Below, in pieces: positions 1 through 62,972 of a DNA stretch of 64,000 nucleotides (its first letter is position 1; each line of letters starts with the position of its first letter). The notes beneath the pieces were generated by a model. The model had not been told where the DNA came from. It made no database searches and saw only the letters and a list, made by a program, of their open reading frames with translations. The stretch covers positions 1 through 64,000 of the forward strand of contig NZ_BBBJ01000007.1 in the NCBI RefSeq assembly GCF_001316005.1, read 5' to 3'. A program made the translations under genes and the position numbers. The DNA comes from Vulcanisaeta distributa JCM 11217 (GTDB lineage: Archaea; Thermoproteota; Thermoprotei; Thermoproteales; Thermocladiaceae).

Positions 1-89
1 CGGATTTGAACCGGGGGGGGACTTCCCGACCCAATTGGGTTCTCGGGGGGGTTATGAGCCCGCAGGCTACCAGGCTACCCTACCCCGCT
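1..89 (-). tRNA. Initiator tRNA-Met (CAT), 3' end cut by window edge
   Basis: Read on the minus strand, the 5' acceptor strand AGCGGGG begins at 89. Exactly 33 bases precede the anticodon CAT (56-54), with loop CTCATAA and a D-arm typical of archaeal initiator tRNA. The T-loop TTCAAAT lies at the window edge. Between anticodon and T-loop there are about 25 more bases than a mature tRNA needs, including runs of seven and eight C and a small hairpin with ACCC/GGGT arms. This fits an intron, abnormal C-run lengths, or both. The last acceptor bases lie outside the window. The identity is fairly sure; the intron borders are not resolved. Confidence 0.6.
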
Positions 90-352
90 GGTTTTATGGG
101 TCATTCTTTGTGCTTTTAAGGCTTTCGCTGGCTGTGGTGGGTTTGGTTTTTAGTTTTGGTGTGTTGGGGTGGTTGGTGGGTGATGATGGGAGGGGGGGTT
201 ATGATGTGTGATTGTGCGCCGGCTTTTTGCTGATTCTCTTGATTAATGCTCAGTGAGCCTTCCCGAGAAATATGAATAACCTACCAATCGGTCTTGAACA
301 TATTGTGAGTGCCATGAACCTGGTGCTCTTGATTAATGAATTGCGTCAGTGT
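90..352. other. Intergenic; no convincing gene
   Basis: I see no convincing gene here. The stretch holds a G7 run (192-198), a short hydrophobic plus-strand frame ending near 210 without a good start, and a 13-base direct repeat CTCTTGATTAATG at 236-248 and 326-338. Confidence 0.4.
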
Positions 353-557
353 CTAAATGATCGCGTCCCTAACCATGGCTATGGCAATCAATGACCTAAA
401 CATAAACCCACGCCTTAAGTAGGCTATTGCAGTCTTGAGGAGGTCACTGCGAAGTGAGTCGGCTCTCCACTAAACGCCAAGCCTAATGGCCTTCCTCCTA
501 ACGGAAACGAGCAACTGCAGACTAACTGCCTTGAATGATTCTCTCCAGGAATTCCAT
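353..557 (-). pseudogene. Degraded small ORF, unknown family
   Basis: From an ATG at 557 the minus strand reads a plausible helical protein (beginning M-E-F-L-E-R-I-I-Q-G). It needs one frame change after about 15 residues and then runs through a single in-frame TAG to a basic helical end (L-K-T-A-I-A-Y-L-R-R-G) and a stop at 353. The length and charged helices resemble small archaeal PaREP-type proteins, but I cannot place it in a family. It is either a decayed gene or a short gene damaged by the base errors seen across the window. No gene is visible between it and the thermopsin-like gene. Confidence 0.28.
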
Positions 558-666
558 GGCTAGGGCAGGGCCTCCTTGGGCAGGATAAGAATTACTCCCT
601 TTATCAAGTAACACACCTTTTAAAATATTTGTCCTAGAACTTATCAATAACGTGGTTGCGCAATGC

Positions 667-2987
667 TCATACCGTGATCACGTCATTACCCTGCCCATCA
701 CCTCTAAACCTCATTATTAATAGCACCATCAATACCGTGAGTAACATCATTAGGTATATCGTATAGTAATCACGATAGTTCACGTTAACGTACATTGGCG
801 AGTCAATAGCTAGTATGATATTGCCCAGTAGTGGGTATTCACGACCATTGACGTTGATTGACGAGACAACGGCGAGGGTTAGGTTAGGCAACACCTGGTA
901 CCTGGGTATTGACAGCCTGATTACCGAGCCTGGCCACACCCACCCCCCCGTGTAGCTCGTGGTCCTGGTTCCATTGACTATCACTGGCAATGAACCCTTA
1001 ATAACCACCAGGTACTGCGGAGATCCAGCTATGTTTATGCGGGTTGGTTCTGTGATTATTACCGTACCATTAACCGGGGGATTCAATTATAAGCCTCGTC
1101 GAATTACCGAGGTAGTAATACCTAGGTACGATAATGACTAGGCTTGTTCCGTTGGTGAGCCATCCTGTGTAATTCACGGTCTTAACGCCATTTATCAAGA
1201 TGGGCACTGGGCTCGTAACCACCACTAAGTACTGAACTGCCCAATCCACGGTGATGCTCATGGGACTGCAGACCTTGTATGTGCCCGTCCCATTAATCAC
1301 CACATACCTAGTGTCATTACCCAGGTAGTGGGCATCCGCGTTCACAATGAGGCGGCTGCACGCAGTCACCCAATTAACATAGTTCATTGTTAAGGAGCCA
1401 TTCACGTTGATTGGGTATTCACTGCTCACGGTGATTAAGTACTGCCTAATCCAGCCTATGGTTATGTTCATTGGCTTATCCACTGTAATTAATAGTGAGG
1501 AGCCGTTAATGGGTAGTAACCTAGTTCCATTGCCCAGGTAATTTGGTGTGGCAGTTATGTTAATGACTGAACCAGCCCTAACCCACCCAGCGTAGTTACT
1601 AACTAGCGACCCATTGACACTTATCTGGCCTATGCTTGTTATTGAAATTAGGTAGTAAGTGGAGTAACTAGGCCTAACGATCACCACCTTGGGAACACTT
1701 GATGGCGTAACCTCAACACCCGTGGTGTTTAGAAATCTCCGGGCCCCCCCGTTGGTCATGACCCATACGCCGGCGAGCCTCATCATTACTCCAGGCGCAG
1801 GTTCCGCAATTTGCGGGTAGGATATGTTTATGGGGTTTACTATGTACGTACTATGCACAACTCCATCCAGACCCACCCACTCCACATAAGTCATTGGAAC
1901 ACTCAATGCATTGAAGGTGTCCACTTGCCCGTAATTTGGCTCACCATTTACGACACAGGGCAATTCACCGCACGTGGTTGTGCTAGGTACGTTGATGTTA
2001 GGTTCGTGTTAATGGCGAAGTTGTACATATTTGTGACCGGCATGAAGGATTCACCATTCCAATAAAGAAGAGCGATCTGGGCGTTAAACGGCTGCGCATT
2101 GCTCAGTCCATTACCAATTATTAATTCCGAGTCATAGGAATAACCACTGGGTGTGGCTAGGTATGGGTTCATCATTATGACAACCTTGGCGGCAAGGCCT
2201 AACGACACCTCATATGCCCAGTTAATTCCTGGCTCGCCGTAATGAGTACCATTCTCTATCACGGCATAGCCCAGCCAAACCACGGCATTCCCATTAGTTA
2301 TGTTAACCATAACCGACAGGTACAGGGCATATGGAATCTCAACGTGCCCTAGCCATATCGTCGCCATGCCCAGGACCTGAGATTCGCTGTTTGTAATGTT
2401 GACTACGTAAATCGTCAGTAGAGAATTACCGTTAGAAATATTGAGGATCTCCTCGACCCAGTACTCGGCTATCTCGTAATAATGATAATCCACCACCAAG
2501 GATCCAAGGGCAATGTTGATGGGATTGCCAGGTTGGTACTCTGTAATGTTCACGTAGGCCAGCAACTCATTAGTAATTACTGGACCTAGGGATGTTATGC
2601 CAACCCCCCCGGGCTGGTTGATGACCCTAACGACCGCGTTAACCCCCCACACCGCACGGCGCTGGGTATAGAACCACTGAGTATTGGCCCTGCGGCATTG
2701 GAATTACGTAAGCTGCGCCGCCCGTCACGTTCTGGGAATATATGGCGTAGGCCTGTTCACCCGAGACCCACCTGCTGTATTGACCTGGGGGTGAATATGT
2801 ATAGGCTGTAGTTATTACTGAGTACGTGAATCAACAGGTACTGACTTGAAAGCACTGTTACATTCCACAATCCCCCCCAACATGCACCACTACTCGGTGG
2901 ATTAACGGTTATTGACTGCGCATAAACCACACTGGGCATTGACATAGCCACAATTAGGGCTAGCGCTACCGCAGTTACATACCTCAT
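667..2987 (-). CDS. Thermopsin-like (peptidase family A5) surface protease, frameshifted
   Basis: This is a reconstructed protein of about 770 residues, secreted and probably membrane anchored. Residues 1-24 form a signal peptide ending V-V-Y-A-Q. The next ~300 residues resemble thermopsins, acid proteases of hot acidophiles, with elements such as I-T-S-L-G-P-V-I-T-N-E-L and Y-W-N-G-E-S-F. Then come four or five repeats of the form V-N-G-(x)n-Y-x-G-W-V...Y-L-G-N-x-T-R, and a C-terminal transmembrane helix near residue 735 with a basic tail. The frame breaks at 2797-2801 (G5, four needed), 2643-2648 (C6, five needed), near 1965 (one base missing) and 1076-1080 (G5, four needed). A TATA-like CTATAAGG at 3013-3020 lies 26-33 bases before the ATG. 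One repeat carries an extra Gly at a C7 run (943-949). Catalytic residues were not verified. Confidence 0.72.
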
Positions 2988-3729
2988 TCAATGCCTATAT
3001 CATGCGCATCCCTTATAGGTCTTTAGTTAGGATCAGGCGTATTATTGGTAATCGTTAAATATTACATCCTGACCTAAGCCTAGTAATGTCACTGTATAAA
3101 GAAGTCCCTAATTAGTGGCGTGGTCTTTGGATACCTATACACAGTCATTACCTACGTATTCGTCCTGGTTTACGTAATCCTACCGATCAAGCTCATACCG
3201 CTGATTCAATAAGCTATTGCAATATCTAATTGCCATGATAAGCATGGTAGGGCTATCCTTCTTAACCCTCGGCGTCGATGCTGCCATAGCCAGGGAAAGC
3301 GTCATGCTCTATTCATAGCCCGAAATCATCCCTCAAAACTTCTTATAAGTCCATTAATCATGAATACCGATGTTACGAGAAAGACAATGATTATGGCGGT
3401 GATTATTAAGTGTGTTATGAAGTTTTATGAAGTAAACCACATCATTAATAATGGTCTCTGAGTATGGGGCTACAGCAGTAATTAATGAACACGCTTATGC
3501 ATTGAGTATGTTCATTAAGTAATTCATACGTTGTTAATAATGATTATGATATTGCAGCATTATGATTAATAACCTAAAATGAGCTAATATCCCTAACGAA
3601 GAACCTAACCAATGCATCAATAACATGAATATAACGATGCACATTAATGAATTACCGGCACACTTAAAAGTTAATCTTGCGGGTTAACAACACGTAAGAT
3701 TGTTAAAGGGGTTTGATAGTGGTATCCTA
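2988..3729. other. Intergenic, AT-rich, with a membrane-protein remnant
   Basis: No intact gene is visible. Around 3117-3320 the plus strand reads two short hydrophobic pieces in neighbouring frames (G-Y-L-Y-T-V-I-T-Y-V-F, then S-M-V-G-L-S-F-L-T-L-G), probably the remains of a small membrane protein. The rest is low-complexity AT-rich sequence full of stops. The start side of the thermopsin-like gene's promoter is at 3013-3020. Confidence 0.4.
3117..3319 (+). pseudogene. Decayed small membrane protein
   Basis: Two hydrophobic stretches of about 30 and 25 codons lie in different frames with stops between them. Together they could be two transmembrane helices of a short protein. No start codon is convincing. 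I cannot assign a family; this rests only on hydrophobicity. Confidence 0.22.
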
Positions 3730-4179
3730 ATGCAGTGCCAATTACCCGCCAGGTATGAGTATGGGGAACACACGGCCGACGTCGCGTGATAGCCTACGGA
3801 TGCACGCTTGAGGAGGCCTTTAAGAATGCCGCACTTGGGGGGGTTGCTGACCTTACTTATTACGTTGATAGGGTTGAGCCGAGGGAGTTCGTAGAGGTTA
3901 ACGTGGAGGGCGAGGATCTTGAGCAATTATTGTTTAATTGGATTGATGAGTTCATATACCTATTCGATGGCAGGAAGTTCGCCTACGGCGACTATTTCAG
4001 GGAGGTTAGTATTGAGGGTAATGGACCATACAGGATTAGAGCTACCGTCGGTGGTGAGCACTTTGACATTAATAAGCATGGTTATAGGGGGCCTAATAGT
4101 TAAGGCGATGACCTACAACATGATGGAGATTAAGAAGGCCAATAACTATTGGAGACTCACGTTCGTGGTTGACATCTAG
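3730..4179 (+). CDS. Archease, frameshifted
   Basis: Archease is a small metal-binding protein that helps the RNA ligase RtcB turn over; archaeal homologs also interact with RNA modification enzymes. The signature [10 protein letters not shown] sits near residues 9-18, followed by E-E-A-F-K-N-A-A and a C-terminal F-V-V-D-I whose Asp normally binds metal. Two breaks interrupt it: a missing C near 3783 (D-V-R-V-I-A-Y expected) and a G5 run at 4086-4090 where four are needed. A G7 run at 3837-3843 adds a Gly after N-A-A-L. Start ATG 3730 gives a seven-residue lead into the motif. The reconstructed length of about 149 residues is usual for the family. Confidence 0.85.
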
Positions 4180-4219
4180 GTTATGCATTAAAAGGGGGGG
4201 ATTACGTACTAACTATCGT

Positions 4220-4464
4220 ATGTCATCAAGCACCACGAAGCGTAAGATCGGCCTTACACTCATTGGTATTGGTGTCGCCCTGTTGTTAGTGGCCTCGGCG
4301 CTCGCGTATATAGAATTAATCCGGAGCATCTCTATACCACAGCCGATCTCACTTACGAGCGTGCTTTACGTATTGGCCGTGGTCACGTATAAGGTAGCTT
4401 CATAGCCGTAATCGCCTGGGCAGGTGCAATACTCATAACGAGGGGGGGCCTACAAGCGTTATAA
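4220..4464 (+). CDS. Small two-helix membrane protein, unknown, frameshifted
   Basis: About 80 residues: a basic N-terminus (S-S-S-T-T-K-R-K), a transmembrane helix at ~12-32 and a second at ~50-75, interrupted by a one-base loss near 4397 after which A-V-I-A-W-A-G-A-I-L continues to a stop at 4464. I do not recognise the family. ATG 4220 was preferred over the upstream ATG at 4169 because the earlier start would add residues encoded across a G7 run and overlap archease. It ends a few bases before the convergent vapC stop. Confidence 0.5.
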
Positions 4465-4468
4465 TGGG

Positions 4469-4928
4469 CTAGCCGATATATTTAGCATTCAGCCCCCCCT
4501 CATTAATCAACACCTGGTACAATTTCCTATCAGCCGTGACAACCTCATTAGCGCCTATAAACTTTGCTGATGCTACTTGTACAGCATCGGCTTGGTAAAT
4601 GTGATATTTCTCAATTATTGACCACGTGCTCCTTAGTATTGATAACTTAATTGGTATAATCATAAGTACGCCTAATTTAACTAGTCTTAAGGTTTCTCTC
4701 ATGAATCGTAGCTTAGCGGTTTCATACTCATTATCAGTTATTAACTTCCTCATTCTTGCCCTATCAAGGACCCCCTAATACCTCTCCTATGTTCCATGCA
4801 TTGAATGCTAATTTTACACTACCCGTATAGGAACTTAAATAAAGTGATTTTACATAATCACTGCCGGGTTCAGAAATGTACCTCTTTACTATGGCACTAC
4901 TGTCCAGATAAATCACTCTCTCTTTCAT
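4469..4928 (-). CDS. vapC: VapC-type PIN-domain toxin, frameshifted
   Basis: VapC toxins are PIN-fold ribonucleases, usually held inactive by VapB. The reconstructed ~153-residue protein has the PIN acidic positions: Asp in I-Y-L-D-S-S-A (residue ~8), Glu in N-I-G-E-V-L, Asp in Q-A-D-A-V-Q-V-A and Asp in T-A-D-R-K-L. The frame breaks once at C5 4771-4775, where four restore V-L-G-V-L-D-R-A. Near the C-terminus a C7 run reads E-G-G-L where PIN proteins usually have E-G-L. Its ATG overlaps the vapB stop (ATGA), so the pair is one translation unit. The target RNA cannot be told. Confidence 0.85.
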
Positions 4929-5155
4929 CCCTCATCTCCCTCACGAGACCACTCACTGGCTCCCTGCTTAATCGGTTCAAAATCAAGCTCTGGATTGGTC
5001 TCCTCGGGTATTAGTGTATTAAGCTCAATCATCAGCTCCTCTTTAATCAATTCCTCCAGCAATTCGCTAGCGTCTAAACCCTGCTCCGCAGCATGTCTCT
5101 TAAACTCTCTCCATAATTCCTCATCGATATAGATACTAGTCTTTATCTTGCCCAT
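4925..5155 (-). CDS. vapB: VapB-type ribbon-helix-helix antitoxin
   Basis: A 76-residue protein with N-terminal strand K-I-K-T-S-I-Y-I-D and two helices typical of ribbon-helix-helix DNA binders, then an acidic C-terminal tail (E-E-T-N-P-E-L-D-F) that probably covers the toxin. It lies directly before vapC with a 4-base ATGA overlap. VapB antitoxins usually repress their own operon together with the toxin. The upstream region 5160-5200 is AT rich and carries a TATA-like CTTATTTA element on the minus strand. No frame damage. Confidence 0.85.
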   Translation of the reverse strand: MGKIKTSIYIDEELWREFKRHAAEQGLDASELLEELIKEELMIELNTLIPEETNPELDFEPIKQGASEWSREGDEG

Positions 5156-5271
5156 ACCTTCCTTATTGACTTAAAGGAGTAAATAAGTTTTTCTGTAAAT
5201 ACTTAATTAATCCAGCGTTCCTAAATTACTAAGGCGTTAAGACTTATTACTTAATCAAAATACTGGCTTTT

Positions 5272-5625
5272 GTGAGGGTTGCTATTGCGTTGGCAATACT
5301 CTCACTGGTGATTACATTGATTGTACTCGGCATTTCAGCATTAACGACGGGGGGGAATTTAAGTAGGTACGTTAGCGCCAGCATTTATCAGTCAGGTACT
5401 GGGTATTACCTAAACTTCACGGTGCGTAACCCATTGCCATTACCATTGGTGATAACCATATCGCAGGGAGGCCTTTCAAGGAGTGTTTATGTTGAGCCCT
5501 ATGGTTTTGGAGAGGTCGTAATGCCAATAACGTCACTTAACGTACCAATAAACATAACCGTGTCAATACCTGGTATTGCCAACGTCACCAGTACGGTGAC
5601 CCCCCATCATGAGGATCAGGGATAG
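5272..5625 (+). CDS. Secreted/anchored small protein with Ig-like beta domain
   Basis: Starts at GTG 5272, about 30 bases after an AT-rich TATA-like stretch (5241-5255). Residues 1-27 form a hydrophobic signal or anchor helix; the rest is beta-rich (Y-L-N-F-T-V-R-N-P-L-P-L-P-L) and resembles extracellular Ig-like domains. At its end a C6 run (near 5600) precedes an overlap of 17 bases with the next gene. If the run were five C, the frame would run straight on into the next protein and make one ~245-residue polypeptide. No family recognised; probably faces the cell exterior. Confidence 0.55.
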   Translation: MRVAIALAILSLVITLIVLGISALTTGGNLSRYVSASIYQSGTGYYLNFTVRNPLPLPLVITISQGGLSRSVYVEPYGFGEVVMPITSLNVPINITVSIPGIANVTSTVTPHHEDQG

Positions 5626-10192: not shown

Positions 10193-12555
10193 CACCCCTC
10201 GACAGCCCTCATTATCTTATAAGGCCTCAGTGGCAGGTCTGTTACTGCTTTACCAATTATTGAGGCCAGGGCATTGACTATCGCCGCAGGCACACCCATC
10301 ATGGCTCCCTCACCAACACCATGAGCCCAGAGACTAGATGCTTCGTGGGTGTTTCAAAGTGTATGAACTCCACCTCCATACCCACAGCCTCAGCCAGCGT
10401 TGGTGTTTCATAGATATCGAGACTCGTCGTTAATGGATTACCCTGATCATCATACATCAACTCCTCATAAAGCGTGAGGGCGAGTCCATGCATTAAACCA
10501 CCCATTAATTGTCCATCAACGAACTCCCTCTTGAGTATCCTACCAGCGTCATGGGCTATCACGTACTTCTTAACCTTAATGTCATACGTGTTTGGGTCGA
10601 GCTCTATAACGGCAAGTTGCGCCTGTATTGCGTATGTGGCTGATGAGTTTATTTTATCACCCTCTGCCGCCTTAACCGTTGGCGGTTGATAAAACACGGT
10701 AGCGCTCAATGACGCATCCAAGCCCTCTGGTAATGAGCCTGGGTCCCAATTAACTGATGATGCCATTCTCCTAATGTCGATCCTCCTACTTGGGTTGTTT
10801 ATGTCATAGAACTGACCATTCTCATAACCAACCTTATCCGTGCCAAGCATCGCCATGGCTATTCTCGTCAACTTCTCCCTCAATTGTCTCGCGGCAAGTA
10901 TCGCAGCACTAACTACTATTGGGGGGGCGAACCTGGATGAATATGAACCATCTGATAGCGCCCACGTCCTTGTCGTATCAACCCTATTCTCAACAATTAT
11001 TACTGAGGGGGTCGACACCCAGTTCCGAGGCGACGACCTCGGCGAGCGTTGTTTCGTGACCAAGCCCCCCCTCGTTGGTGCCATTAACGAAAACCCTAAT
11101 GTACCCACTCATGTCGAGGCTGATTGTTACATAGGAACCAGAGCCCGAGTGCGGGTATTTACGCTTGCTTGGCTCGATTGCTAAATCTGTGTAGCCTAAA
11201 TTCGTGCCTGCCGGCTCCACGAGGACTGCAATACCAACACCAATGTTTGGGTTCTTCCTCCTCTCCTCAAGCCAACGCCTATACTCAGGTTCTATAGCCC
11301 TAACGACCCTCTCATAGTCCTGCCTTGGGTATAGGCCGCCTGTGACCGTCTCGTAGAAGTACTCATCACCAATCTTCTTCGGGAACTCCCTAATTAGGTT
11401 CTTGATCCTAAGCTCGAGTGGGTCTATACCAAGTTCACGGGCTAATTCATTAACGGCAACCTCAAGCATGTAATAGAATGGTGGGCCGCCATAAGCCCTG
11501 TTAAGGCCTGTTGGTAACTTATTCGTTATTACTACGTAATCCTCAACATCGATGGCCCTAACATCATATGCACCGTTCATGTTACCGTGAACCCTAAATA
11601 GAACGCCAGGATCAGGCGGCCTTGGATACGCACCAACATCCTCATAAAACCTATACCTAAGTCCCTGAATCACGCCATCCCTAGTCGCCGCAACCTCCAC
11701 AACACCCTTCCTAGCACCACCTGAGTTGCTGCCCACGAGGTGCTCAGTCCTACTCTCAACCCACTTAACAGGTCTGCCACTAAGTATTGACGCCGCAGCG
11801 GCTAGTGTTATGTATGGATAAAGTGAGTACTTAGAGCCGAAGCTACCACCAACGTCCCTAGGGCCAAAGAGCCTAAGACTACCCGTTGGTAAGCCTAGAG
11901 CTCTCGTTACAAAGTAAGTTATCAATAACGGCCCTTGAGCATTAGCCCAGACATTCAGTTCACCACCAGTATAATGTGCAAGGACTCCGTAGGTCTCCAG
12001 GGGCATTGCATTGTGCTTTTGATAGTAGAACTCACGCTTTATAACGACCGGAGCCTCAGAGAACACCTTATCCACAGGCCCAAACTTCATATGCCTATAC
12101 ATGGCCACGTTCGACTTAAGCTCCTCATGAACTAGTACATCACCCTTCAACGCATCATCAAAGGTGAGCACGGGCTTTAATGGCTCGAAATCAACCTGGA
12201 CATAATCAAGTAAGTCAATCGCCTTATAGGGGGGGTCATCGGCGAGGACCACGGCTATTGGCTCACCAACGAACCTGGCCTTATCCCGGGCAAATGGATA
12301 ATACTTGATCGGCGCATCCACAGCCAGTGGGAATGGGTTTGGTATTACCTTAGCCAAGTCGCTTGGCCCGTAGGCAATGCCTCCATGCTCAAAGACCCCG
12401 CTTAAGTCAACCTTGAGTATTCGGGCATGGGCGTAGGGGGGGCTCCTGTAGATCGCCATGTAGAGCGTGCCTGGCGGTGTGGGTATATCATCAATGTACT
12501 CGCCAGAACCGGTCACTGCACGGAGACCTTCCCGATAATGAGGCAATTTACTCAT
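10192..12555 (-). CDS. Molybdenum hydroxylase large (molybdopterin) subunit, frameshifted
   Basis: Catalytic subunit of the CO/aldehyde/xanthine dehydrogenase family, about 785 residues when reconstructed. Seen: the near-N-terminal substrate-domain motif (here R-S-P-P-Y-A-H-A-R, normally R-S-P-x-A-H-A), [21 protein letters not shown] and the late G-V-G-E-G-A. The family's active-site Glu region is the C-terminal G-V-G-E. Breaks: G5 at 11007-11011 (four restores D-P-S-V-I-I-V-E) and CCC at 10326-10328 (four restores S-G-A-H-G-V-G-E-G). The AYR motif needed for CO oxidation (V-A-Y-x-C-S-F-R) is absent, so aldehyde oxidation is more likely than CO oxidation. First gene of the operon with the fused FAD/FeS subunit. 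Confidence 0.88.
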
Positions 12556-16795: not shown

Positions 16796-18317
16796 TCACT
16801 TGAAGGCTAACGGTGATACCTTCACCTTAATCCTCAGTATATCCTCCTGCAGCTTCCTCCACTCGGCCGAGTTATATATACAGCCCGGGTCTGGAGCGAG
16901 TACGTCACCGAAGTAGTTATACGCCCTGGCCCTACAGCCACCGCAGATCAGCTTATACGGGCATTTACCGCAGAATCCCTCAAGCTATCCCTATCCCTGA
17001 AGTTCTCCATGAATGGATCCATCCAAATATCCCAGAAGGACTTAGTCCTTAGGTTACCCACTGGGTATGGCAGGAATACGCATGGCGTTAGCGTACCCTC
17101 AGGTTCGATTGCTGCATAAACACGGCCAGCGCCACAACCACCGATGAACTCCGTCAACTCCCTAGTTATTGGATCATTGGCAATTACGAAATGTGTTGGT
17201 GAAACATCCTCACCACCGCTTAACTGATTAACTACCCTGCCGTACTGAGGAGCCGTGCTTATGATCTCCATCTTCCTCCTCCTCATCTCCTTATAAATAT
17301 GCCTAAGGAACTCCTCCCTCTCCTCGGGTGACAGGTCAATCTCCAGGTTCTCACGGCCCCTACCTACTGGAACGAAGTTGAAGAACACAACTCTCTTAAC
17401 GCCAATCTCCTGGGCCAGGTCAAGTATCTTGTCAACCTCATGAATATTGTACTTGGTCACCGTGAATGCTAACGCCGCACTAAAGCCAAGCTTAACGGCA
17501 TTCCTAAGCCCCCCCTGCACCGCCTTAGCCCATGCACCTGGTACACCCCCCCTAAACTTATCATGAACATTGGGATCAGCAGCGTCAATGCTTATCTCGA
17601 CATACCTAAGTCCAAGCTTCTTAGCCTTCTCCGCAAATTCGAGATTTGCAAACGTCGTTCCATTAGTCGCAATGGCCGGGTAAAAACCCCTTCTACCTAT
17701 CTCGCCAAAACAGGCCAGAAGTCTCTGTGAACCGTTGGCTCACCACCAGATAATGCGATGGCCGGTACTCCGGCCTCATCAAGCTCCTTAACAACCCTAA
17801 GCTTCTCATCAAGCGTTAACTCATTGGGCAGTGGTTTACCGGCGTTTTGGTAACAATGAATGCACCTTAGGTTGCAGGCGTTTGTGAAGTTCCACACTAT
17901 GAAGAATGGGGGGGCGGGGGGGAGCTTCTGCGGTGTCGTAACACCGAATAGGGCTATGCCTCTCAATGTAGTGACTATGCCCCTCCTAATCGCTGGATCA
18001 CTAAGCAACTGCTTAATTGGCTCCTCATCCGCGTGCAGCCAAGCCGTGGCAAGCTTCATGCCCATCTCAAAGAATGGAGCCACGAAGTGAGCCACCGTTG
18101 GGCACTGGGATTCACCAGCATACTTTGCCAATACCCACTCCATCAATGGCTTCCTCTCACCATTGAACTCCACCTCCTTAGTCAATACCCTGAGCGCCCA
18201 TCTAACAATGCCTCTATTCAATAATCTAATCGCGGCTATTAATGCACCAGCACCACTTCCCGAATCCTCCACCTTCTTCTTCACTAACTTATCAATGTGT
18301 TCTCCCAATGATGACAT
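16796..18317 (-). CDS. Radical SAM/SPASM protein, frameshifted
   Basis: About 505 residues. The first ~140 form a helical N-terminal domain of unknown role; then comes the radical SAM core with C-N-L-R-C-I-H-C and S-G-G-E-P-T, and a C-terminal SPASM Cys cluster (F-C-G-K-C-P...I-C-G-G-C). SPASM members commonly modify peptides or proteins, so a maturase role is possible, but no substrate peptide is recognised nearby. Breaks near 17704 (one base missing) and near 16977 (one G missing). A C7 run gives K-F-R-G-G-V-P-G where the family has R-G-x-x-G. Forms an operon with the B12-type radical SAM gene, one base apart. Confidence 0.8.
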
Positions 18318-22131: not shown

Positions 22132-23467
22132 TCATTCGAGCTGTTTTCTAACAGTCTCGGGACCTATTGATGCGCCTATTATTGTCATTGCCGCACCAAT
22201 CATTACGACTATTGATGGCGCCAGGGCAGCCGCAGTTATTGGGTTCATGCCACCTTTTAGGTTGGCATACAATAATAATGCGAAGGTCGGCGCTAATGAA
22301 CCAATCGCTGCATTCAGATTCCAGCCAAAACCAATCCCGCTCCACCTGACCTCTGTTGGGAATATTTCGGAGAAGTAGGCGGTCTGCACAGTGGCGCTTA
22401 GGGTGAATATGAAGTACATGAGGCCAGTGATAGGGCCATTATTGGTATTGAGAGGGTTGTTAGGGCTAGGTAAAGTGGGTATATTGTAATTAGGAGTATT
22501 GCCGTTGGTACTATCAACATCCTTCTCCTACCGAATAGGTCAGTTAGGTAGCCACCAAATGTATTGCCTATTATACCGCCAATGCTGCCGAGCATTAACG
22601 GTAAATATGTCAATTGGACAAAGGCCCTCTGGAGCTCCGGAATATAGCTTGATAGTAACTTGGTGAATGTTGTTACGAAGCCATACCCTGCGTAGAACAC
22701 GAAGGTTAGGCCAAGGTTAATCAGTATGACGAGAACTAGGCTAAACCAGTACCTTCTAATGGCGGTTGCTAACGGTACTTTAACGATCTTACCCTCCTCC
22801 TTCTTCCTCTCCCAAAGTATTGACTCTGGGGCTGCGAACCTTATTATCAAGCCTATTATGACGACAACAGCACCGCTCAGGAATAAGATCCTCCAGCCAA
22901 TTACGCCTATTGGATAGTAAGCACTGACAAGTAGTAATAAGCCTGTTGCGAGTAGTGAGGCGACTGACATGCTTGAGTTAAGCACCCCCCCATTAACTAA
23001 GCCGCGCCATTTAGGTGATGCGAATTCCAAGGCCCACACAACACCGCCACCAGCCTCGCCACCATAACCAAATCCCTGGACAAACCTGAATATGGTGAGT
23101 AGGGTTGGTGCCCAAATCCCTATCTGCGAGTACGTTGGCAGTAATGCTATGACTATTGTCGCCACGGCCATCGTAACCGCATCACCAAGCAGCGCATTTC
23201 TTCTACCGTACTTATCCCTATGTGCCCAAAGAATATCGCACCGAGGGGGGGTCTCGCGAAGTAGCCCACGGCAAAAACAAGTAATGTGTATAGAAGCGCC
23301 GCCAATGGGTTTGACTTCGGGAAGAATAGCTCACTTATATATGGGATTAATGAGAAGTATATCAGGAAGTCGTAATACTCAAGGGCCCATGCGAAGAAGG
23401 TCGATATTGACGCTAGCATTAAGCCCCCCCTCCTTCTAACGTGCTCAGGAATAGATGGTCCGCTCAT
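22132..23467 (-). CDS. MFS transporter, metabolite:H+ symporter type, frameshifted
   Basis: Twelve-helix major facilitator of the MHS type, which import carboxylates or similar compounds. The loop between helices 2 and 3 reads A-R-P-P-L-G-A-I-F-F-G-H-I-G-D-K-Y-G-R-R once a missing G near 23217 is restored; the family has R-P-x-G, and the extra Pro is at a G7 run (23245-23251). E-S-I-L-W-E-R-K and the late G-P-E-T are also typical. A second break near 22428 lacks one base. It is homologous to the plus-strand carrier at 44685-46010. Convergent with etfA. Confidence 0.85.
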
Positions 23468-29293: not shown

Positions 29294-30028
29294 TTAGGCA
29301 TTATTACCCTCATTATTAATTGTAATACCGTAAATATCCCGAATCTGCTTAAGTAGGTCATCAACCATGAACCTAAGTATTTCAAAACCAATCTCGGGCC
29401 TTACGAGGTCCCTACGCAATGAACCAATAATGCCCGTCTTACTAACGTCAATAGTCCTGAAAACGTTTATATTACCGCTAGCCTCGATATCGGTGATTCT
29501 ATCCCACCTAACAAGGTTCTTATCTATTGCAGCAATTAATGATGCTTCAACGGCATCGGCATGCCCGAAGGATGGGAAGTACCTCGTTATATAATCAATG
29601 ACCCTCCTATTGTATACGTAGTAATGATAAGCCCTAGGACTAACCCCCCCTGAGTAATTCCACTCCTTAACAACTATGTTTAGTGCATCTACATTGCCGC
29701 CATGCCCATTGACGAACACTACCCCAATAGGATTCCATGCAGACACACTCTCAATAAAGTCGAGAAGGTAACGAATTAGGCTTTCAAAGCGGACCCACGT
29801 TGTGCCTACGAAGCCCGTATGCTCCATTGAGGAACCAATGGCAATTAATGGATAAAGCAAGGCCTTATTTCGCATTTTACGTTCAACCTCTGCTGCAACG
29901 TAATTAGCGATTATCGAGTCAGTGCCCAGGGGGGGCAGGTGAGGGCCGTGTTGTTCTATGGATCCAATCGGTACGATGATTAAAGGATCCTTAGGCACTT
30001 CATCACGTGTTATTTCCAATATCCTCAC
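29294..30028 (-). CDS. Creatininase-family amidohydrolase
   Basis: Metal-dependent hydrolase of the creatininase family, which also includes archaeal FAPy (formamidopyrimidine) deformylase ArfB and mycofactocin MftE. Metal ligands: E-Q-H-G-P-H-L-P-P-L-G-T-D near residue 25, the D-S pair, G-H-G-G-N near 112, and H-A-D-A-V-E. The family motif is H-L-P-x-x-T-D; the extra Pro is at G7 29929-29935. Frame intact, 244 residues. Exact substrate not deducible; it lies alone between fba and ttuA. Confidence 0.84.
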   Translation of the reverse strand: MRILEITRDEVPKDPLIIVPIGSIEQHGPHLPPLGTDSIIANYVAAEVERKMRNKALLYPLIAIGSSMEHTGFVGTTWVRFESLIRYLLDFIESVSAWNPIGVVFVNGHGGNVDALNIVVKEWNYSGGVSPRAYHYYVYNRRVIDYITRYFPSFGHADAVEASLIAAIDKNLVRWDRITDIEASGNINVFRTIDVSKTGIIGSLRRDLVRPEIGFEILRFMVDDLLKQIRDIYGITINNEGNNA

Positions 30029-32867: not shown

Positions 32868-33740
32868 TCACCCCCCCTGGGTTATCCACCTCTTTAAACC
32901 GTATAATGCGTAGGGTACGACTACGGCAACAGCAATCGCGATGACTATACCCGCTATCGCCGTCGCCTCGGCAAAGTGCTCGCTTATGTAATCCCAATAG
33001 AGGTTTATGACTGCCGTCTCGACAAATGGATTCAGCGCTACCATACCGTACGGTAGTGAGAATATCCTTAGGGCAAATAAGAAGAGTAGTGCCGATGAGA
33101 TTATTAAGGCACCCCCCCTGACGTTAGGCAGCAATATCCTTAGGTATATCGTGAATGTGCCAGCCCCCCCATCAACCTTAGCCGCATCAATTACTGACTG
33201 TGGCACGTTCATGAGCATTGCTAGGTAGAAAATAACCGCAAGCCCCGAGTAAGCCCAGGTGGTTACTAGAAAAATGCTCCAGAAGGCGTTCTGAGGACCT
33301 AGCCAATTAATTGTGGGTAGTCCAATTAGCTTAAATACGTAATCAAAACCATACTCGACATTATAGAGCCATAGCCATATGAAGGCGTTAGCTATCATGG
33401 GCATCGCTAACGGGTATATTAATATTGATAAATAGACATTACGCTGCGTATTACTCCTTAGGAAGAACAATAGGCCGGCTAGTATTATGCCCAGCGCATT
33501 GCCTGAGACGACTAGGAGAGCCGCTAACAATATTGATCTCTCCAATGACGAGACGGTTATCGGTGTTGTAAGGGTCTTTACGTATGTTTGAAGACCCACG
33601 AATTGGGGGGGTATTGGGTTAAATAATGACCAATTAGTGAATGAGTAGTAATAATCCCAAACGAGCATGTATAGGAGGAATACACCAAAGATTAAGGCGG
33701 GAGAGGAAAAAATTAGCATTGTTTTTAATTCATGCCTCAT
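32868..33740 (-). CDS. Sugar ABC transporter permease, MalF type
   Basis: Intact 290-residue permease with six helices. EAA loop D-A-A-K-V-D-G-G-A-G-T-F-T-I-Y-L-R near residue 195; the usual motif has D-G-A, and the extra Gly sits at C7 33164-33170. A second C7 near 33112 gives N-V-R-G-G-A-L. Upstream gene is the binding protein (13 bases away), downstream the MalG-type partner (4 bases), so the three form one operon. Confidence 0.9.
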   Translation of the reverse strand: MRHELKTMLIFSSPALIFGVFLLYMLVWDYYYSFTNWSLFNPIPPQFVGLQTYVKTLTTPITVSSLERSILLAALLVVSGNALGIILAGLLFFLRSNTQRNVYLSILIYPLAMPMIANAFIWLWLYNVEYGFDYVFKLIGLPTINWLGPQNAFWSIFLVTTWAYSGLAVIFYLAMLMNVPQSVIDAAKVDGGAGTFTIYLRILLPNVRGGALIISSALLFLFALRIFSLPYGMVALNPFVETAVINLYWDYISEHFAEATAIAGIVIAIAVAVVVPYALYGLKRWITQGG

Positions 33741-54254: not shown

Positions 54255-55414
54255 TTAGGCAATGTACTTCCTTAGTCTCTCCTCATTTAATTCAAAGCCG
54301 AGTCCTGGCCTATTGGGTATTTCCACATCATCTCCCTTAAATACCTCCACCGGCTCATTGGTTATTTCATAGGCCAGTGGATTTTTCTCGACATAGTAGT
54401 ATTCGTAGGTTGGTGTGAAGGTTATGTGGCTTGGTAGTGATGCCACGAATTGGAGTGTCGCAGCCCTACATCCAGCCCCTGATAACCCAACATGGAATGT
54501 CATGGGTATGCCGAAGGCGTCAGCATGGCGGCTATTTTCATGGCCTCCGTTATACCACCGACCCTCGCTATGTCAGGCATTACGATGTCCACGGCCTCCC
54601 TAATCATGAATTCAAGCCATTGATACTTGGTGAATAGGGTCTCGGCAGCGGCTATTGGTATGTCAAGGGCTTGGCAATCCTTGAGTAGGCCTCAATATTG
54701 TCGGGCGGTACAGGTTCCTCAAACCAAAGCACGTCGTATCTCTCCAACATCCTACCAACCTTAATTGCCGTGGATACATTGTATGCGGTGTTTGCATCAA
54801 CCATTATCTCAACATCGTTACCCAGCGAGTCCCTTATTGCCTTAATCACGGCTTTATCCATGTCGTAGCCCCTACCAATCTTAACCTTAACATACCGAAA
54901 TCCCTCCTGCACGAGCCTCTCAACCTCCTTAACAGTGTCCTCAGGGCTCATGAAGAGCACCGACGATGCGTAGGCCTTAACCCTATCCCTAAAGGCACCA
55001 CCGATTAACTTATACACGGGCTTCCCAAAGTACTTACCCTTAATGTCCCAGAGGGCCAAGTCAACCCCGGATAAAGCCTCCACGTAGTAACCTGCGTAGT
55101 GGCCACGGATCCTCATTGCCGAGAATAACTGCTCCCAAATAACCTCATTATCCAGTGGGTCCTTACCAATGAGCATGGGCTTGAATAAGTTATTTATGAC
55201 TGCTGCAGTGGCTTCAGGGGGGGCCTCCCTGGCGATCGCCTCACCCCCCCCAACCAACTAACCCCCCCTCATCGGTCACAACCTTAACGTAAACTGCAGT
55301 AAATCCGTGGCTAATCTTCGATGCTACGTCCTCATAAAAGCCCCCCCTGAATCCAGTGACGGGTTTTCCAACATATGCCTTGGCCACGTACGTAATCACA
55401 TCAGCTATCCTCAT
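54255..55414 (-). CDS. Enolase-superfamily sugar-acid dehydratase (mandelate racemase type), frameshifted
   Basis: About 385 residues. Barrel acids: K-V-K-I-G (~150), V-D-A-N (~180), F-E-E-P-V (~205), A-E-T-L after repair (~230) and H in T-F-H-V-G-L-S. This set fits mandelate-racemase-group acid-sugar dehydratases such as gluconate, galactonate or arabinonate dehydratase. With KdaD and glucose dehydrogenase nearby, a step from aldonate to 2-keto-3-deoxy acid is likely; substrate uncertain. Breaks: C8 55244-55251 (four restores the family motif G-W-G-E), near 54676 (missing G) and near 54525 (missing G). C7 55262-55268 gives D-E-G-G-L-V where one Gly is usual. Confidence 0.85.
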
Positions 55415-56251: not shown

Positions 56252-56255
56252 TATT

Positions 56256-57310: not shown

Positions 57311-57380
57311 AATTAATTATGTGTAAAGCACTGGTATAAATGTTTTAGAATTAAGGATCTCAATTACGATTTAAGGGTGA

Positions 57381-59322
57381 TTAGGGCCCTTTCATCAGTA
57401 TTATCCTCTCATCCTTATCCTTCAATATCTTCTTGACCGCATCGTAAACCTCATCAACGAATATGGGCCTTCCCGTGACCTTAATGACCTTGTGCTTGAT
57501 CTCAATGCCTGTCTTCTCCCTAATCACGCTGGCGGCTTGTGCGTCGTAGTTCGACTCAACATCGATTATTAACTGTCCCTTGCTTAGGGCGTTCTTCACG
57601 AAATCGCTTGGGAATGGTATGAACATCTTAAGCTGCAGGAAGTTAACCCTATAGCCCTCCCTGTTTAGCATGTTCATGACGTCTAGCAATACTCCTTTTG
57701 TTGATCCCCAACCAACGAGGGTTATATCCGCGCTCTCCGGTCCATATAGCCTAACTTTATCCGTGATTGGTATTTCCCTATCCGCAAGCTCGAGCTTCTT
57801 CATCCTCTTCTCATACATCTCTGTCCTTGTGACTGGATCCTCGGTTATGTGACCGAACTCATCGTGCTCATCACCCGTCAACCAGAATATTGGCCCTAAC
57901 CCGGGTATTGACCTTGGTGATACCCCCCCATCCTTCGTTATCCTAAACCTCCTATAATCATTCTCATCCTTCGTCACTACTAACCCCCCCCTATCAATCC
58001 TAAGGGCCTTCTTATCGATATCCCAAATAACCGTTGAGTACGAGTTGGCGAGGGTCTTATCAACTAGGTGGAACACGGGCATTTGATACCTCTCGGCCCA
58101 GTTAAGGGCTTTGAACGCATCCTCGATAGCCTCCCTGTGATCACCCGATGAGATTACTATCCTTGGGAATTCACCGTGGCCCATGTGCATTACGAACCTC
58201 AGGTCTGACTGGCTATTCCTCGTCGCCATGCCCGTGCTTGGCCCAGCCCTCTGGTAGTGCGTTATCACGACTGGTACCTCATTCATTCCTGCGAAGCCCG
58301 TGCCCTCAACCATAAGGCTTAGTCCAGGTCCTGACGTTGCCGTCGCAGCCCTTGCGCCGGCTATCCCAGCGCCTATTGCCATGTTTATGGCTGATATCTC
58401 GTCCTCAGTCTGAACAACGACTATGCCAGCCTTCTCCAGGGCCTTGGCCTCCTCCGTGACGGGGGGGTCAAGGCTAACTATGTTGTGGGCCTCTATGAAG
58501 AATGACTCATCAGCCGCAGGCGTTATTGGGTAATAGGTCTGGAACCTGAGACCACCGAGTATCTTACCTATTGCCACTGCCTCATTACCATTAACGATTA
58601 TCGCCCTGACCTCCCTCTTTATCGGTGGTAGTGATATGTTCGTCTTTATCGGCTTTGCATAGTCATAAACCACCTCCACAATGGCTTTGTTATACTCAAG
58701 TAGTTTGCCCCCCCTCCTACCCGTGAATACATCCTCAAGGCCCTTGAATACGTAATCGATAGGTAAGCCCATTATCGCGGTTGAATAGGCGGTCATCACT
58801 ACGTTAGAGTACCTGCCAATCAATGATGGTAAGTCAATGTCGTGAAGCCTCTTCTTAACCTCCTGGAGTAGGTCCGCATAGTGCATGGTTAATACATTGA
58901 CTCCATTGTTCCTCAGGTAATCAATGACTCCCTTAACCGTGGGTTCAATCCCAGCCTTACTGAAGAACTCCCTAAGTCTCTCCTTTAACTCATCCTCCAT
59001 GTACTGCAGTTGGTCGAGTCTAGTATTGAATGTGGATGTGTCGACTATCACGTAGCCACCGCGCTTTACATCCTGGAAGTGAGTGAATACGGATTCGGCG
59101 TCAAGGGCCACTAATACATCCATCGTGCTTAGTAAGCCACCCTTTGGTTCATCACTAACCCTAACCATGAAGTAGCTATGCCTACCCTTAATGTTTGAGA
59201 AGTACTCCCTGTCACCAATTACGTAGTAGCCAGCCCTGGCGACAGCTCATGAAGACATTAGCGCCAGTATCAATGCCACCACCCTGTGGTCCACCAATAA
59301 CCCACATTATGTCCGTAGGCAT
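57381..59322 (-). CDS. 2-oxoacid:ferredoxin oxidoreductase, fused gamma-alpha subunit, frameshifted
   Basis: About 647 residues: gamma domain (~1-190, V-I-G-G-P-Q-G-G-G-I-D-T-G-A near the start) then alpha domain (Y-P-I-T-P-A-A-D-E-S, T-A-T-S-G-P-G-L-S-L-M, A-G-P-S-T-G-M-A-T). It decarboxylates 2-oxoacids such as 2-oxoglutarate, making acyl-CoA and reduced ferredoxin. One break near 59247 (missing G) restores V-F-M-R-A-V-A-R-A-G. C7 57923-57929 gives D-G-G-V-S-P-R where the family has D-G-x-S-P-R. The TPP-binding beta subunit that normally sits next door is absent on both sides. Confidence 0.86.
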
Positions 59323-59448
59323 TACACTAAGCCTTCTGAGACCTATTTATTAAGCCTTCTCCTATTGTAGAATATGTATTGATCACGTAAAATTAAGCCC
59401 ACATCATTAATTCAATAAAATATAACAATATTCGAATGAATTAATGAA

Positions 59449-60454
59449 TTAAGGTCTAATAAGTATCTTCCCAATTCTGGAATTATTTTTCATGAATTCC
59501 AGAGCATCACTAAACTTATCTAATGGGAATGTGGCAGCTATGACCGGCTTAACAAATCCCTTACTTAATAGCTTAAGTGTCTCAGCAACATCAGACCTGT
59601 TTGACCTAACGTTACCGATCATTATTATATCCTTCATGATTAGGTAGCCAAGCCTTAATTGGTATGTCTCGTCAGGGTTCACATTCCCAATAATTATCAC
59701 CCTTCCTCCACTACGTAGGCTCCTCAGCGACTCCTCAAGGGTTGGCGTTCCCACCGCCTCGATCACTATATCCGCACCAACATTATTCGTTAAGTCCTTA
59801 ACAACCTTACTAAACCTCTGCTCAGTAACCACCTCATCAGCAAACTGCTTAATGAACCTGGCCTTTTCAGGTGACCTTGTAATCGCTATAACCCTGGCAC
59901 CCAACGCCTTAGCCAATTGAACGGCGTGAATACCAACACCTCCACTCGACAGTCACCACGACAGTCTCTCCATACGCTAGCCCAGCCCTTTTAAGGCCCT
60001 TGTAAACCATGGCAACGACGCAGAGGGTGAATGCGGCCAATTCATCAGGCACTCCATTAGGCACCTTAACTAATGCATTGCCTGACACCCTGGCGTATTC
60101 AGCGAAGAATCCGTCAACGTTCTCACCATAACTAAGCGCGTTAATGCAGTATGAGTCAAGCCCACGCATGCAGAACTCGCAGGTACCATCCGGCTCGTGA
60201 AGCAACGGTACGACCCTATCCCCCCCCGGCTTAAACCTTGGGTCTCTCGATTCAACCACGACACCAACGGCTTCATGACCTAAAATAACTGGGTACTTCA
60301 TTCTCGGGTAATAACCAGCGAGTTGGAGTAGGTCGCGGTAGCACAGTGCCGCGTAGTTTATCTTTATTAGCACGTCGCCGTCATTAAGTCTTGGCATTGG
60401 TACGTCACGTACTTCGTACTTACCCCCCCTCTCATAAACAACAACTGCCTTCAT
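59449..60454 (-). CDS. Zinc alcohol dehydrogenase (MDR family), frameshifted
   Basis: About 335 residues. Catalytic ligands in A-L-C-Y-R-D and G-H-E-A-V-G; structural Zn loop C-E-F-C-M-R-G-L-D-S-Y-C has three of the usual four Cys. Cofactor region is broken near 59950; restoring it gives T-G-S-S-G-G-V-G-I-H-A-V-Q. C8 near 60224 gives K-P-G-G-D-R-V-V where the family has G-D-R-V. Substrate unknown; could act on an aldehyde from sugar acids. ATG 60454. Confidence 0.84.
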
Positions 60455-60510
60455 TAATTAACGATGAGGTTGCAATATTTTAAGGAATTCCCTGAACTGA
60501 TTATATTCAA

Positions 60511-61299
60511 TTACTCTTTAATTTCGACCCTAGCCATTTCATAATCACTGGGTCTCATATTGTATAATTCATCGATTAAGTTCACCTTTAATGATGCCGG
60601 TCCCGAGGATCTCTTCTCAGCCTTTTCAGCTGCCACTTCAAACGTGACTAGGCCCTCCACTGAGGCGACCAGGAAGTCCCTGTTCATGGCCATGAAGCTT
60701 GCAATTACTGAACCAACCATACAGCCACTACCCGTTATGTATTGTAGCATTGGCGTTCCATTACTAACAACCGCACCCCTCTTACCATCCGACACATAGT
60801 CCCTAGGGCCTGTGATCACCGCCGTAACTCCATACTCCCTAGCGAGTTTCTCCGCAATATCAAGGTTAGCCTCGCCCAATGAATCCACGCCCTTAACCAT
60901 GCCAGCCACACCCGCCAGAGCCATCATCTCGCCACCATTACCCTTAAGCACACTAACCTCAACCTCATTGAGGATCCTAAGCACAGTCTCCGTCCTAAAC
61001 CTAGTCGCACCAGCACCAACTGGGTCTAGGAGCACAGGCACGTTATTCCTACTGGCAGCCTTACCAGCCAATAGGAAGGACTCAACCCACCTATCATCAA
61101 GCGTACCAATATTTATGTACACGACATCGGCCTTAGCCGCCAACTCCTCAATCTCATCAATAGCGTGCGCCATTATTGGCGATGCACCAACGGCTAAGGT
61201 CACATTTGCCGCATCATTCATAACCACGTAATTCATTAGGTGATGAACTAAAGGTCTCCTTCTCCTAATGGTCTGCAGGTCATTCCAGTAATTGATCAT
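60511..61299 (-). CDS. thiM: Hydroxyethylthiazole kinase
   Basis: Phosphorylates 4-methyl-5-(2-hydroxyethyl)thiazole for thiamine salvage. Motifs: N-Y-V-V-M-N-D-A-A-N (~24-33), L-D-P-V-G-A-G-A-T (~91), K-G-N-G-G-E (~120) and I-T-G-S-G-C-M-V-G (~190). 262 residues, intact. Thiamine pyrophosphate is needed by the TPP enzyme and the 2-oxoacid oxidoreductase in this window. Notably its Gly-Gly pairs are not in G7 runs. Confidence 0.92.
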   Translation of the reverse strand: MINYWNDLQTIRRRRPLVHHLMNYVVMNDAANVTLAVGASPIMAHAIDEIEELAAKADVVYINIGTLDDRWVESFLLAGKAASRNNVPVLLDPVGAGATRFRTETVLRILNEVEVSVLKGNGGEMMALAGVAGMVKGVDSLGEANLDIAEKLAREYGVTAVITGPRDYVSDGKRGAVVSNGTPMLQYITGSGCMVGSVIASFMAMNRDFLVASVEGLVTFEVAAEKAEKRSSGPASLKVNLIDELYNMRPSDYEMARVEIKE

Positions 61300-61449
61300 T
61301 AATAGCTCAATAACATAGTAATTAATAAATATTAATAATGTTATTCATTAATTAAGATAAGAAGAGAGAACACGCAGAATTCCTCATGATTTGGTGCACT
61401 AAGTAATTTCACATAGACTTATTAATTCAGTCTATAGCATAAGAATAAG

Positions 61450-62328
61450 ATGAGCGAAAACCTTAGGAGCGAGTTTTTGCGTTTGTTGAGGGAGGATGAG
61501 GAGTTTAGGCTTGCGGTGATTGGTTTGTTGGGTATTGCTGATATTCAGTCATCGATTAGGGAGTTGGTTAATGCCGTTAATGAACTGACAAAGACAGTCC
61601 AAAGACTCGCTGAGGGCCAGGATAAATTGTGGCAGGAGGTTAGGGCATTGAGGGAGGACCAAAACAAGTTGTGGCAGGAGAACAACAAGATTTGGCAGGA
61701 GATAAGGGCATTGAGGGAGGGGGGGGCAGGAGAGGCTTTGGGAGGAGAATAATAAGCTGTGGCAGGAGGTTAAATCACTACGCGAGGGCTACGAAGGTTT
61801 AAGGAGTGATGTGAATAGGTTGTGGGAGGAGAATAAGCGAATAAACGAGAACATTGAGAGATTATGGCAGGAGAACAAGAGGATCAACGAAAACATAGAA
61901 AAACTATGGCGAGAAAACAACAAAATATGGAGGGAGATAAGGAGTATTAGGAGAACTTTAGAGCGTGTGACGTTGTCAATAGAGGAGGAAGCCAATGACG
62001 TTGTTCAGTATTTCCTTAAGCAGAGGGGGGGTATTATTGTGGAGACTAGGCCTACGCATTTCAATAGTCGGTTTGAGTTTGATGTTTATGGTACTAATGG
62101 GCAGTTGACGATCGTTGGTGAGGCTAAGACTAGGGCTAGTCCTAACACTGTTAGGAGGGTTGTTGAGAAGATAGATAATGCTGTTAAGGCAATGCCCGAC
62201 AAATTCCCTGGAAGGGTCATCAAGGTAATTTACTGCCTAAGGGCCATGCCGGGCGCGTCGAGGAGGCTAATAGGCTTGGTGTTTGGTTCCTTGAGTCTGG
62301 TAGGGAGAGGAATTCACCGAGCATTTAA
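61450..62328 (+). CDS. Coiled-coil protein with PD-(D/E)XK-like C-terminal domain, frameshifted
   Basis: About 290 residues. Residues ~50-175 form a long coiled coil of repeated units like L-W-Q-E-N-N-K-I-W and L-W-E-E-N-K-R-I-N-E-N-I, in steps near 14 residues. The C-terminal domain reads F-E-F-D-V-Y-G-T-N-G...V-G-E-A-K-T-R-A, matching the D...E-x-K core of restriction-like nucleases found in archaeal DUF3782-type proteins. Breaks: G8 61719-61726 (four restores L-R-E-G-Q-E-R-L-W) and near 62256 (missing G). The repaired frame stops at TAA 62326-62328, sharing TTAA with the convergent kinase stop. Function unknown; nuclease is inference. Confidence 0.7.
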
Positions 62329-62972
62329 TGACTTGGCTTGGCGATATTTAATTCCTTTATTAACTTAATTAGGGATTGAATTGGAGTACCACTGCTCGCG
62401 TCCACGCTAACCAGGTTGAGGGACTTAGCCAATGCATTATATATTACCCACTGCCTCGGTAGTGTCCTTGCGGTTGGTTCACGGCCTTTACGCTTAATTA
62501 ATGTCTTGAGGTCGGCAATTATGAACACGTTCTTACAGTGTTTGATTGCCAATGCCAATGTTGCCCTCCCCCCCCACAAGGTCTTGAGGAAGCCTGGCTC
62601 GGTGGTTACGCAGACCCACACCAGGAAGTCCAGGAGACCTCTCTCGCCAATCACGATCTCGTAAAAACTGGGCATTATGAACCTGAAGAACCAATTGGGT
62701 AGCACTGATATGAATTCCAGGAACCACCAAAGGGGGGGCCTTAGGTTTTTCGGTATTGAAATTCCATAATAGGGATTATCAACACCCCTCATGCTTGGGA
62801 ATAGCGCCAGGAACCTGGCCAGTAGTGACGCGGCCATGTGCGAGCCTCTGATCCAGGAAATCCTAACATGATCATTCCTCATTAAGTATTGAGCAAGTAA
62901 TTGCGCTAATGTACTCTTCCCAGACCCATCAGGCCCGAAGAGGCATATCCTATCATGACCCATCAACAGCAC
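62325..62972 (-). CDS. P-loop nucleoside/thymidylate kinase-like protein
   Basis: 215 residues, intact. Walker A F-G-P-D-G-S-G-K-S-T (~12-21), then I-R-G-S-H-M-A and I-G-E-R-G-L-L-D-F. The layout resembles thymidylate-kinase-like enzymes often encoded beside glycosyltransferases. No lid motif of genuine Tmk recognised, so substrate is uncertain. G8 near 62561 gives L-W-G-G-R. A decayed coding stretch immediately upstream ends 3-4 bases before the start and was probably in the same operon. Confidence 0.74.
   Translation of the reverse strand: MLLMGHDRICLFGPDGSGKSTLAQLLAQYLMRNDHVRISWIRGSHMAASLLARFLALFPSMRGVDNPYYGISIPKNLRPPLWWFLEFISVLPNWFFRFIMPSFYEIVIGERGLLDFLVWVCVTTEPGFLKTLWGGRATLALAIKHCKNVFIIADLKTLIKRKGREPTARTLPRQWVIYNALAKSLNLVSVDASSGTPIQSLIKLIKELNIAKPSH

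Follow-up and report, generated by a model that had tools for sequence, protein, structure and literature searches.

The 64-kb stretch of DNA analysed here (the window) carries 123 runs of seven and ten runs of eight G or C residues, and the corresponding runs in related genomes are shorter by three bases at 103 of the 105 seven-runs that could be judged. It was concluded, with a probability of about 0.97, that these tracts were introduced artificially, during base calling or in the consensus, and are not a real feature of the genome. The interest of this result lies in data quality, as the proteins, ribosomal RNAs (rRNAs) and G-tract statistics of records flagged by the same signature are not to be trusted. 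The element in question is the following.

13–62739, no strand: lengthened G/C tracts (123 of seven, 10 of eight), from run counts and from the +3 difference to relatives

Run lengths in the window and its genome

Counting of G and C runs in the window gave 71 runs of four, 10 of five, 11 of six, 123 of seven and 10 of eight, with none longer than eight. The 69 C7 and 54 G7 runs observed compare with means of 5.45 and 4.2 in 20 dinucleotide-preserving shuffles of the window, and its A and T runs show no peak at seven. The same shape recurs in 20 other stretches, each of 20 kb, of the genome to which the window belongs (G000), in which 3857 isolated G7/C7 runs were counted altogether. The original prediction had put the number of tracts at about 130 and their spacing at one per roughly 500 bases, both of which are right (123 sevens and 10 eights), and the peak at seven also holds in the genome-wide count that it had proposed.

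Comparison with orthologs

The tracts were compared with orthologs under strict and looser requirements on the flanking sequence. With strict flanks, 76 of the 123 seven-runs and seven of the ten eight-runs were dropped for want of clean flanks; with looser flanks, 18 and one, respectively. In the strict set, the best ortholog has four bases at all 47 judged seven-runs, as do 81 of the 82 orthologs over these sites, and all nine orthologs at the three judged eight-runs have five. An ortholog run of seven or more was found at none of these 50 strictly judged sites. In the looser set, the two seven-runs that are not longer by three bases are longer by four. In addition, runs of four in the window match the ortholog length in 67 of 68 cases; for runs of three, the figure is 1140 of 1155. 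The change in length is confined to the run, with the flanks intact (47/47 seven-runs and 3/3 eight-runs with strict flanks, 103/105 seven-runs with looser ones), as expected of an artefact.

Five tracts had been named in the original prediction as sites of an extra residue; they are listed here together with one closely spaced pair.

12436–12442, + strand: G7 in the motif R-S-P-P-Y-A-H-A; four G in relative G018
17908–17922, + strand: two G7 runs with one base between them, without a clean ortholog
23245–23251, + strand: G7 in the motif R-P-P-L-G; four G in relative G019
29929–29935, + strand: G7 in the motif H-L-P-P-L-G-T-D; four bases, ACGG, in relative G023
33164–33170, + strand: C7 at the putative MalF site, without a clean ortholog at strict flanks
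57923–57929, + strand: C7 in the motif D-G-G-V-S-P-R; four bases, CTCC, in relatives G016, G019 and G023

The extra residue is borne out at 12436 and 23245, where the one readable relative in each case has four bases. At 29929 and 57923 the relatives have a four-base sequence that is not a homopolymer, so that here too the window is longer by three. The extra codons would be ancestral if close relatives carried them, but the relatives compared have four bases.

Lengthening across whole genomes

Affected genomes were also compared in pairs with unaffected relatives, run lengths being read where four bases on each side agree. G/C runs of four in G019 appear in G000 as four in 37 cases, five in 10 and seven in 60, with three, six and eight once each (n = 110). 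In a second affected genome, G015, runs that are four in G019 are read as four in 125 cases, five in 27, six in 13, seven in 237, eight in six, three in eight and two in one (n = 417). Furthermore, 72 of 116 native runs of four become seven in G000 when it is compared with G014, and of the runs of four in G012 ten remain four in the third affected genome, G011, with 17 becoming seven and one each three and six (n = 29). Native runs of five are read as five, six, seven or eight, and native runs of six mostly as seven or eight; G and C act alike. Runs of three G or C, by comparison with G019, are kept in 651 of 656 cases, one of them becoming seven, and A/T runs of four are kept in 301 of 305 (G015). 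In control pairs of unaffected genomes, G/C runs of four are kept in 127 of 127 cases (G014, G019) and 74 of 77 (G018, G014). Since runs of at least four are no more frequent in G000 (379 per 100 kb) than in G014 (431) or G019 (388), existing runs were lengthened and hardly any created.

A strict +3 rule was rejected, as the confusion table saturates near seven to eight. A strong effect of flanking bases was likewise rejected, the lowest p value in 48 tests on three genome pairs being 0.0099; this value and one of 0.0103 come from two pairs and concern the same position, eight bases ahead of the run, for which the third pair gives 0.86.

A separate observation concerns G019 itself (63% complete, about 30 contigs; loci L073, L081–L082 and L084–L103), in which A/T runs look lengthened instead. 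Its A/T runs of six, seven and eight number 2.5, 6.5 and 3.3 per 100 kb, respectively; G014 has 10.1 runs of six per 100 kb and lacks longer ones. A homopolymer error of another kind may have affected the G019 draft.

Reading frame and inheritance

Outcomes that shift the reading frame were counted inside and outside open reading frames (ORFs), taken as open frames of at least 450 nucleotides (nt). They make up 41 of 316 outcomes inside ORFs and 14 of 100 outside for G015 against G019, 14 of 101 and one of 14 for G000 against G014, and eight of 76 and five of 33 for G000 against G019. No selection on frame is visible.

The two affected congeners, G000 and G015, share 74 sites at which the state of G015 is four or seven. 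After exclusion of nine sites with another length in G000, the states of the two genomes at the remaining 65 are independent (Fisher p = 0.80), and the lengthened sites are therefore not inherited. Transmission of the tracts to close relatives, which slippage would predict, was not found; in addition to this independence, the unaffected relatives have four bases.

Structured RNAs

Structured RNAs are affected together with coding and non-coding DNA: rRNA, transfer RNA (tRNA), coding and non-coding sites are altered alike, as expected of an artefact. Rfam models run over the window and four stretches gave a single tRNA only. A tRNA-Met gene lies at the contig start and contains two of the tracts.

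1–89, − strand: tRNA-Met (CAT), cut by the contig start; from alignment with three relatives, with its ends estimated from that alignment
13–20, + strand: G8 (C8 on the tRNA strand), in the T arm; four in the relatives
45–51, + strand: G7 (C7 on the tRNA strand), two bases past the CAT anticodon; four in the relatives

By comparison with the three relatives, this tRNA has lost one G in the anticodon arm and gained three C two bases past the anticodon and four C in the T arm. ARAGORN called a tRNA-Met in all three relatives and none in the window. Because the cut at the contig start might alone block detection, the evidence that the tRNA is broken comes from the alignment and not from the absence of a call.

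The 23S rRNA of G000 makes up the first 2180 bases of its contig 10. At 39 judged sites with a native run of four, seven bases were found in 21, four in 10, five in six, and three and eight in one each. One of the lengthened sites adjoins what we take to be the sarcin-ricin loop. A 16S rRNA was not found in G000, and the other two affected genomes were examined instead. Herein, 27 runs of seven or eight were counted in 1580 nt of G011 and 19 in 1120 nt of G015, compared with one in each of six unaffected relatives; the 16S sequences come in two orientations, and only those of like orientation were compared. The lengthened 16S sites take in the 3' end and the motifs GGGGATTAGATACCC and GGGGTGCAGCAGG, which we assume to be conserved. 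As rRNAs altered in this way could hardly function, the sequences are unlikely to be those of living cells.

In genome G001 (locus L064), the 16S match spans 1679 nt, compared with about 1510 in relatives, and includes an insertion of over 100 nt, which may be an rRNA intron.

Distribution among genomes

Among 25 genomes of the family, three have more than 1000 isolated G7 runs: G000 with 3857, its congener G015 with 4803, and G011, from another genus, with 7958. The other 20 genomes of genera g1–g3 have 0–8, and the ten remaining congeners of G000 and G015 have 0–5 each. Estimated completeness is 67, 67 and 47% for G000, G015 and G011, respectively. When the genomes of the class were searched for three tracts lying close together with the strand alternating, this arrangement was found in three of 81, namely the same three. 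In a phylum sample of 398 genomes, which does not include G011, only G000 and G015 stand out, the next genome having 340 isolated G7 runs. G012 and G013, which belong to the genus of G011, have 43 and 119 such runs, above the range in unaffected genomes of the other genera; this excess is seemingly natural, with runs of seven to eight making up 0.01 of the G/C runs of at least four in G012.

A scan of public genomes for the three-tract pattern, together with viral contigs, gave at least 150 loci. Among the best 25 by ratio of the 150 that were counted, four (L241, L248, L251 and L291) show strong peaks, with 27–47 runs of seven to eight each; the other 21 have at most 14, and the remaining 125 loci rank lower. 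The signature was thereby traced to at least three named genomes from three phyla: Thermocladium modestius JCM 10088 (BBBF01; Thermoproteota), Thermogymnomonas acidicola JCM 13583 (BBCP01; Thermoplasmatota) and Methanogenium cariaci JCM 10550 (BBBG01; Methanobacteriota, class Methanomicrobia), where JCM stands for Japan Collection of Microorganisms. Whole-genome counts of isolated G7 are 7958, 5915 and 8110, respectively, and G011 is taken to be T. modestius JCM 10088, since the two counts are the same. In a sample of 145 genomes from its phylum, T. acidicola alone stands out, the next genome having 737. The share of runs of seven to eight among G/C runs of at least four is 0.56–0.60 in the five affected genomes and 0–0.01 in three unaffected relatives. 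The signature tracks the source of the data rather than phylogeny, the source of G000 and G015 being a presumed one. The viral locus L291 (IMGVR_UViG_2681813007_000001) is 100% identical to contig 5 of M. cariaci JCM 10550 over the 3000 bases tried, so that the artefact has entered IMG/VR as well, probably in the form of a provirus.

Comparison with known systems and probable source

The errors resemble the homopolymer errors of flow sequencers (Ion Torrent and 454) in being restricted to homopolymers, and the Ion Torrent signal has been described as dependent on nucleotide type and homopolymer length (PMC5001236). They differ from the usual errors of these platforms in adding three bases, in touching only G/C runs of at least four, in being nearly two-valued, and in persisting in the consensus at about 60% of sites. 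Among the papers listed by literature searches for an error of this kind, none describes it in its title or the opening of its abstract.

The same three named genomes have been noticed before. 'GnNiGn' repeats, several hundred at most, were reported for M. cariaci JCM 10550, T. acidicola JCM 13583 and T. modestius JCM 10088, exactly those named by the G7 signature here, and M. cariaci was singled out in a figure legend (PMC8044849). In its passages on these genomes, that study excluded the three because the repeats have two G-runs only, and did not call them errors; it gives n > 7, whereas most of the runs found here are of seven (PMC8044849).

Contingency loci offer a biological parallel, as they carry phase-variable G/C tracts of about seven to eight in coding sequence. 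Such tracts are few, vary in length among cells and switch the frame. Unlike them, the tracts studied here stand at one value at thousands of sites, rRNA included.

The occurrence in three phyla, the origin of all the named strains from one culture collection and the constant ratio point to a machine or a pipeline. The draft of Vulcanisaeta souniana JCM 11219 (BBBK01), from the same accession series, was sequenced on an Ion Torrent PGM (PMC9872577), and a bacterial JCM draft was obtained with an Ion Torrent PGM and Newbler 2.8 (PMC3961731). We infer from this that the affected drafts were produced by a JCM strain programme, with sequencing on the Ion Torrent PGM and assembly by Newbler. Long-read data, which the few contigs and low completeness had suggested as the source, were dropped in view of the JCM strain names and of the platform given for BBBK01; a literature search for nanopore work on hot springs found no paper.

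On the artefact reading, the sites in the true genome are ordinary G/C runs, mostly of four. The data path leaves runs of up to three correct and reads G/C runs of at least four as about seven, with four staying four in about 30% of cases and becoming seven in about 57%, five giving five to eight, and six mostly seven or eight. As the step from four to seven adds three bases, most errors in coding sequence add one residue and keep the frame, and so look like biology. The remaining outcomes (four read as three, five, six or eight) shift the frame, in keeping with the low completeness estimates. An error that spares A and T and starts sharply at four looks like a wrong homopolymer correction from that length up, and it may be speculated that homopolymer recalibration was mis-set from length four on the G and C flows. 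The vendor's base caller reportedly has a recalibration threshold of four.

Several points weigh against the artefact or against this account of its source. The case rests on assembled sequences, with one assembly per affected strain, and the platform of BBBF, BBBG and BBCP is extrapolated from BBBK01 and one bacterial JCM draft. The flank-base tests explain neither the value of seven nor the escape of about 30% of the runs of four. To our knowledge, a fixed gain of three bases is not the usual description of homopolymer errors on the Ion Torrent platform. In the window, one ortholog, not the best at its site, has three bases rather than four, and the nine eight-runs judged with looser flanks are uneven: six are longer by three, one by four, one by six and one unchanged. 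The run longer by six sits in a poor alignment, and the unchanged run, at 55244, faces the mixed sequence CCCCAGCC with a gap just past the run.

Alternative explanations

The most serious alternative is that the error arose in the consensus step of the assembler, for example because gaps in homopolymer columns were placed inconsistently, rather than in the base caller. Both sources are technical, so that the artefact itself is not in question here; an origin in the assembler is possible, although we consider it rather unlikely. A decision on the consensus at each site might give the bimodal values of four and seven with fewer fives and sixes, lengthening is independent between two genomes, and Newbler 2.8 is known to have been used for one JCM draft. 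However, a flow- and base-specific signal correction accounts more naturally for the fact that only G and C runs, and only those of at least four, are affected.

A real and recent expansion of G/C tracts by slippage, favoured by weak proofreading or mismatch repair and either phase-variable or adding codons, would account for the fact that most changes add a whole codon, and variable G/C tracts have reportedly been seen in Pyrobaculum aerophilum. Nevertheless, slippage should spread the lengths into a graded distribution, as expected also of phase-variable tracts, whereas the window peaks at seven and holds nothing above eight. Frameshifts in ORFs are not selected against, rRNA and tRNA are broken, the ten congeners have 0–5 G7 runs per genome, the sites of the two affected congeners are common no more than by chance, and the 0.56–0.60 share recurs in T. 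acidicola and M. cariaci. Together, these observations make a biological expansion highly improbable.

The two readings offered by the original prediction, a systematic four-to-seven assembly effect and an unusual tract expansion in this lineage, are separated by the same evidence. The former is supported by the orthologs, the broken rRNA and tRNA, the lack of selection on frame and the unrelated JCM drafts, but the mapping from four to seven is not strict: runs of four end as four or seven, some as three, five, six or eight, and some of these outcomes are frameshifts. An expansion in the lineage is refuted by the ten congeners and by the sites of G000 and G015, which are not shared beyond chance, and equally by the same signature in a Thermoplasmatota and a Methanomicrobia genome.

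It is just as improbable as slippage that the records were changed as text in an archive or database, for which only the near-uniform +3 would speak, because replacing text would have spared no run of four, but about 30% of these runs are intact and fives, sixes and eights occur; moreover, unusual G-runs were seen by others in three of the public records (PMC8044849). Almost no weight can be given to the idea that the DNA is truly lengthened and its transcripts, rRNA and tRNA included, are mended to the ancestral length by an RNA-level process, which would need to work in the same way in three phyla; the three named strains, moreover, all come from one culture collection.

Consequences for public records

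The artefact reading provides a simple flag for affected public genomes, namely the share of runs of seven to eight among G/C runs of at least four. Its effects extend to extra Gly or Pro residues in protein families, frameshifts, lowered completeness estimates, tens of false insertions in 16S and 23S genes, a viral record in IMG/VR and surveys of G-quadruplexes. With regard to the latter, T. modestius JCM 10088, at 7.381 per kb, appears in a table of archaea whose quadruplex density exceeds 6 per kb, and the text that goes with it suggests that such density may accompany an extremophile life (PMC7565180). In a simplified G4Hunter count, the five affected sets gave 2.3–3.6 per kb compared with 1.1–1.5 in three unaffected relatives, a gap to which base composition may contribute in the case of T. 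acidicola and M. cariaci, whose own relatives are not in the count. The same table gives very high quadruplex densities for Methanoculleus chikugoensis JCM 10825 and Thermococcus celer JCM 8558 (PMC7565180), and these two genomes may carry the same artefact.

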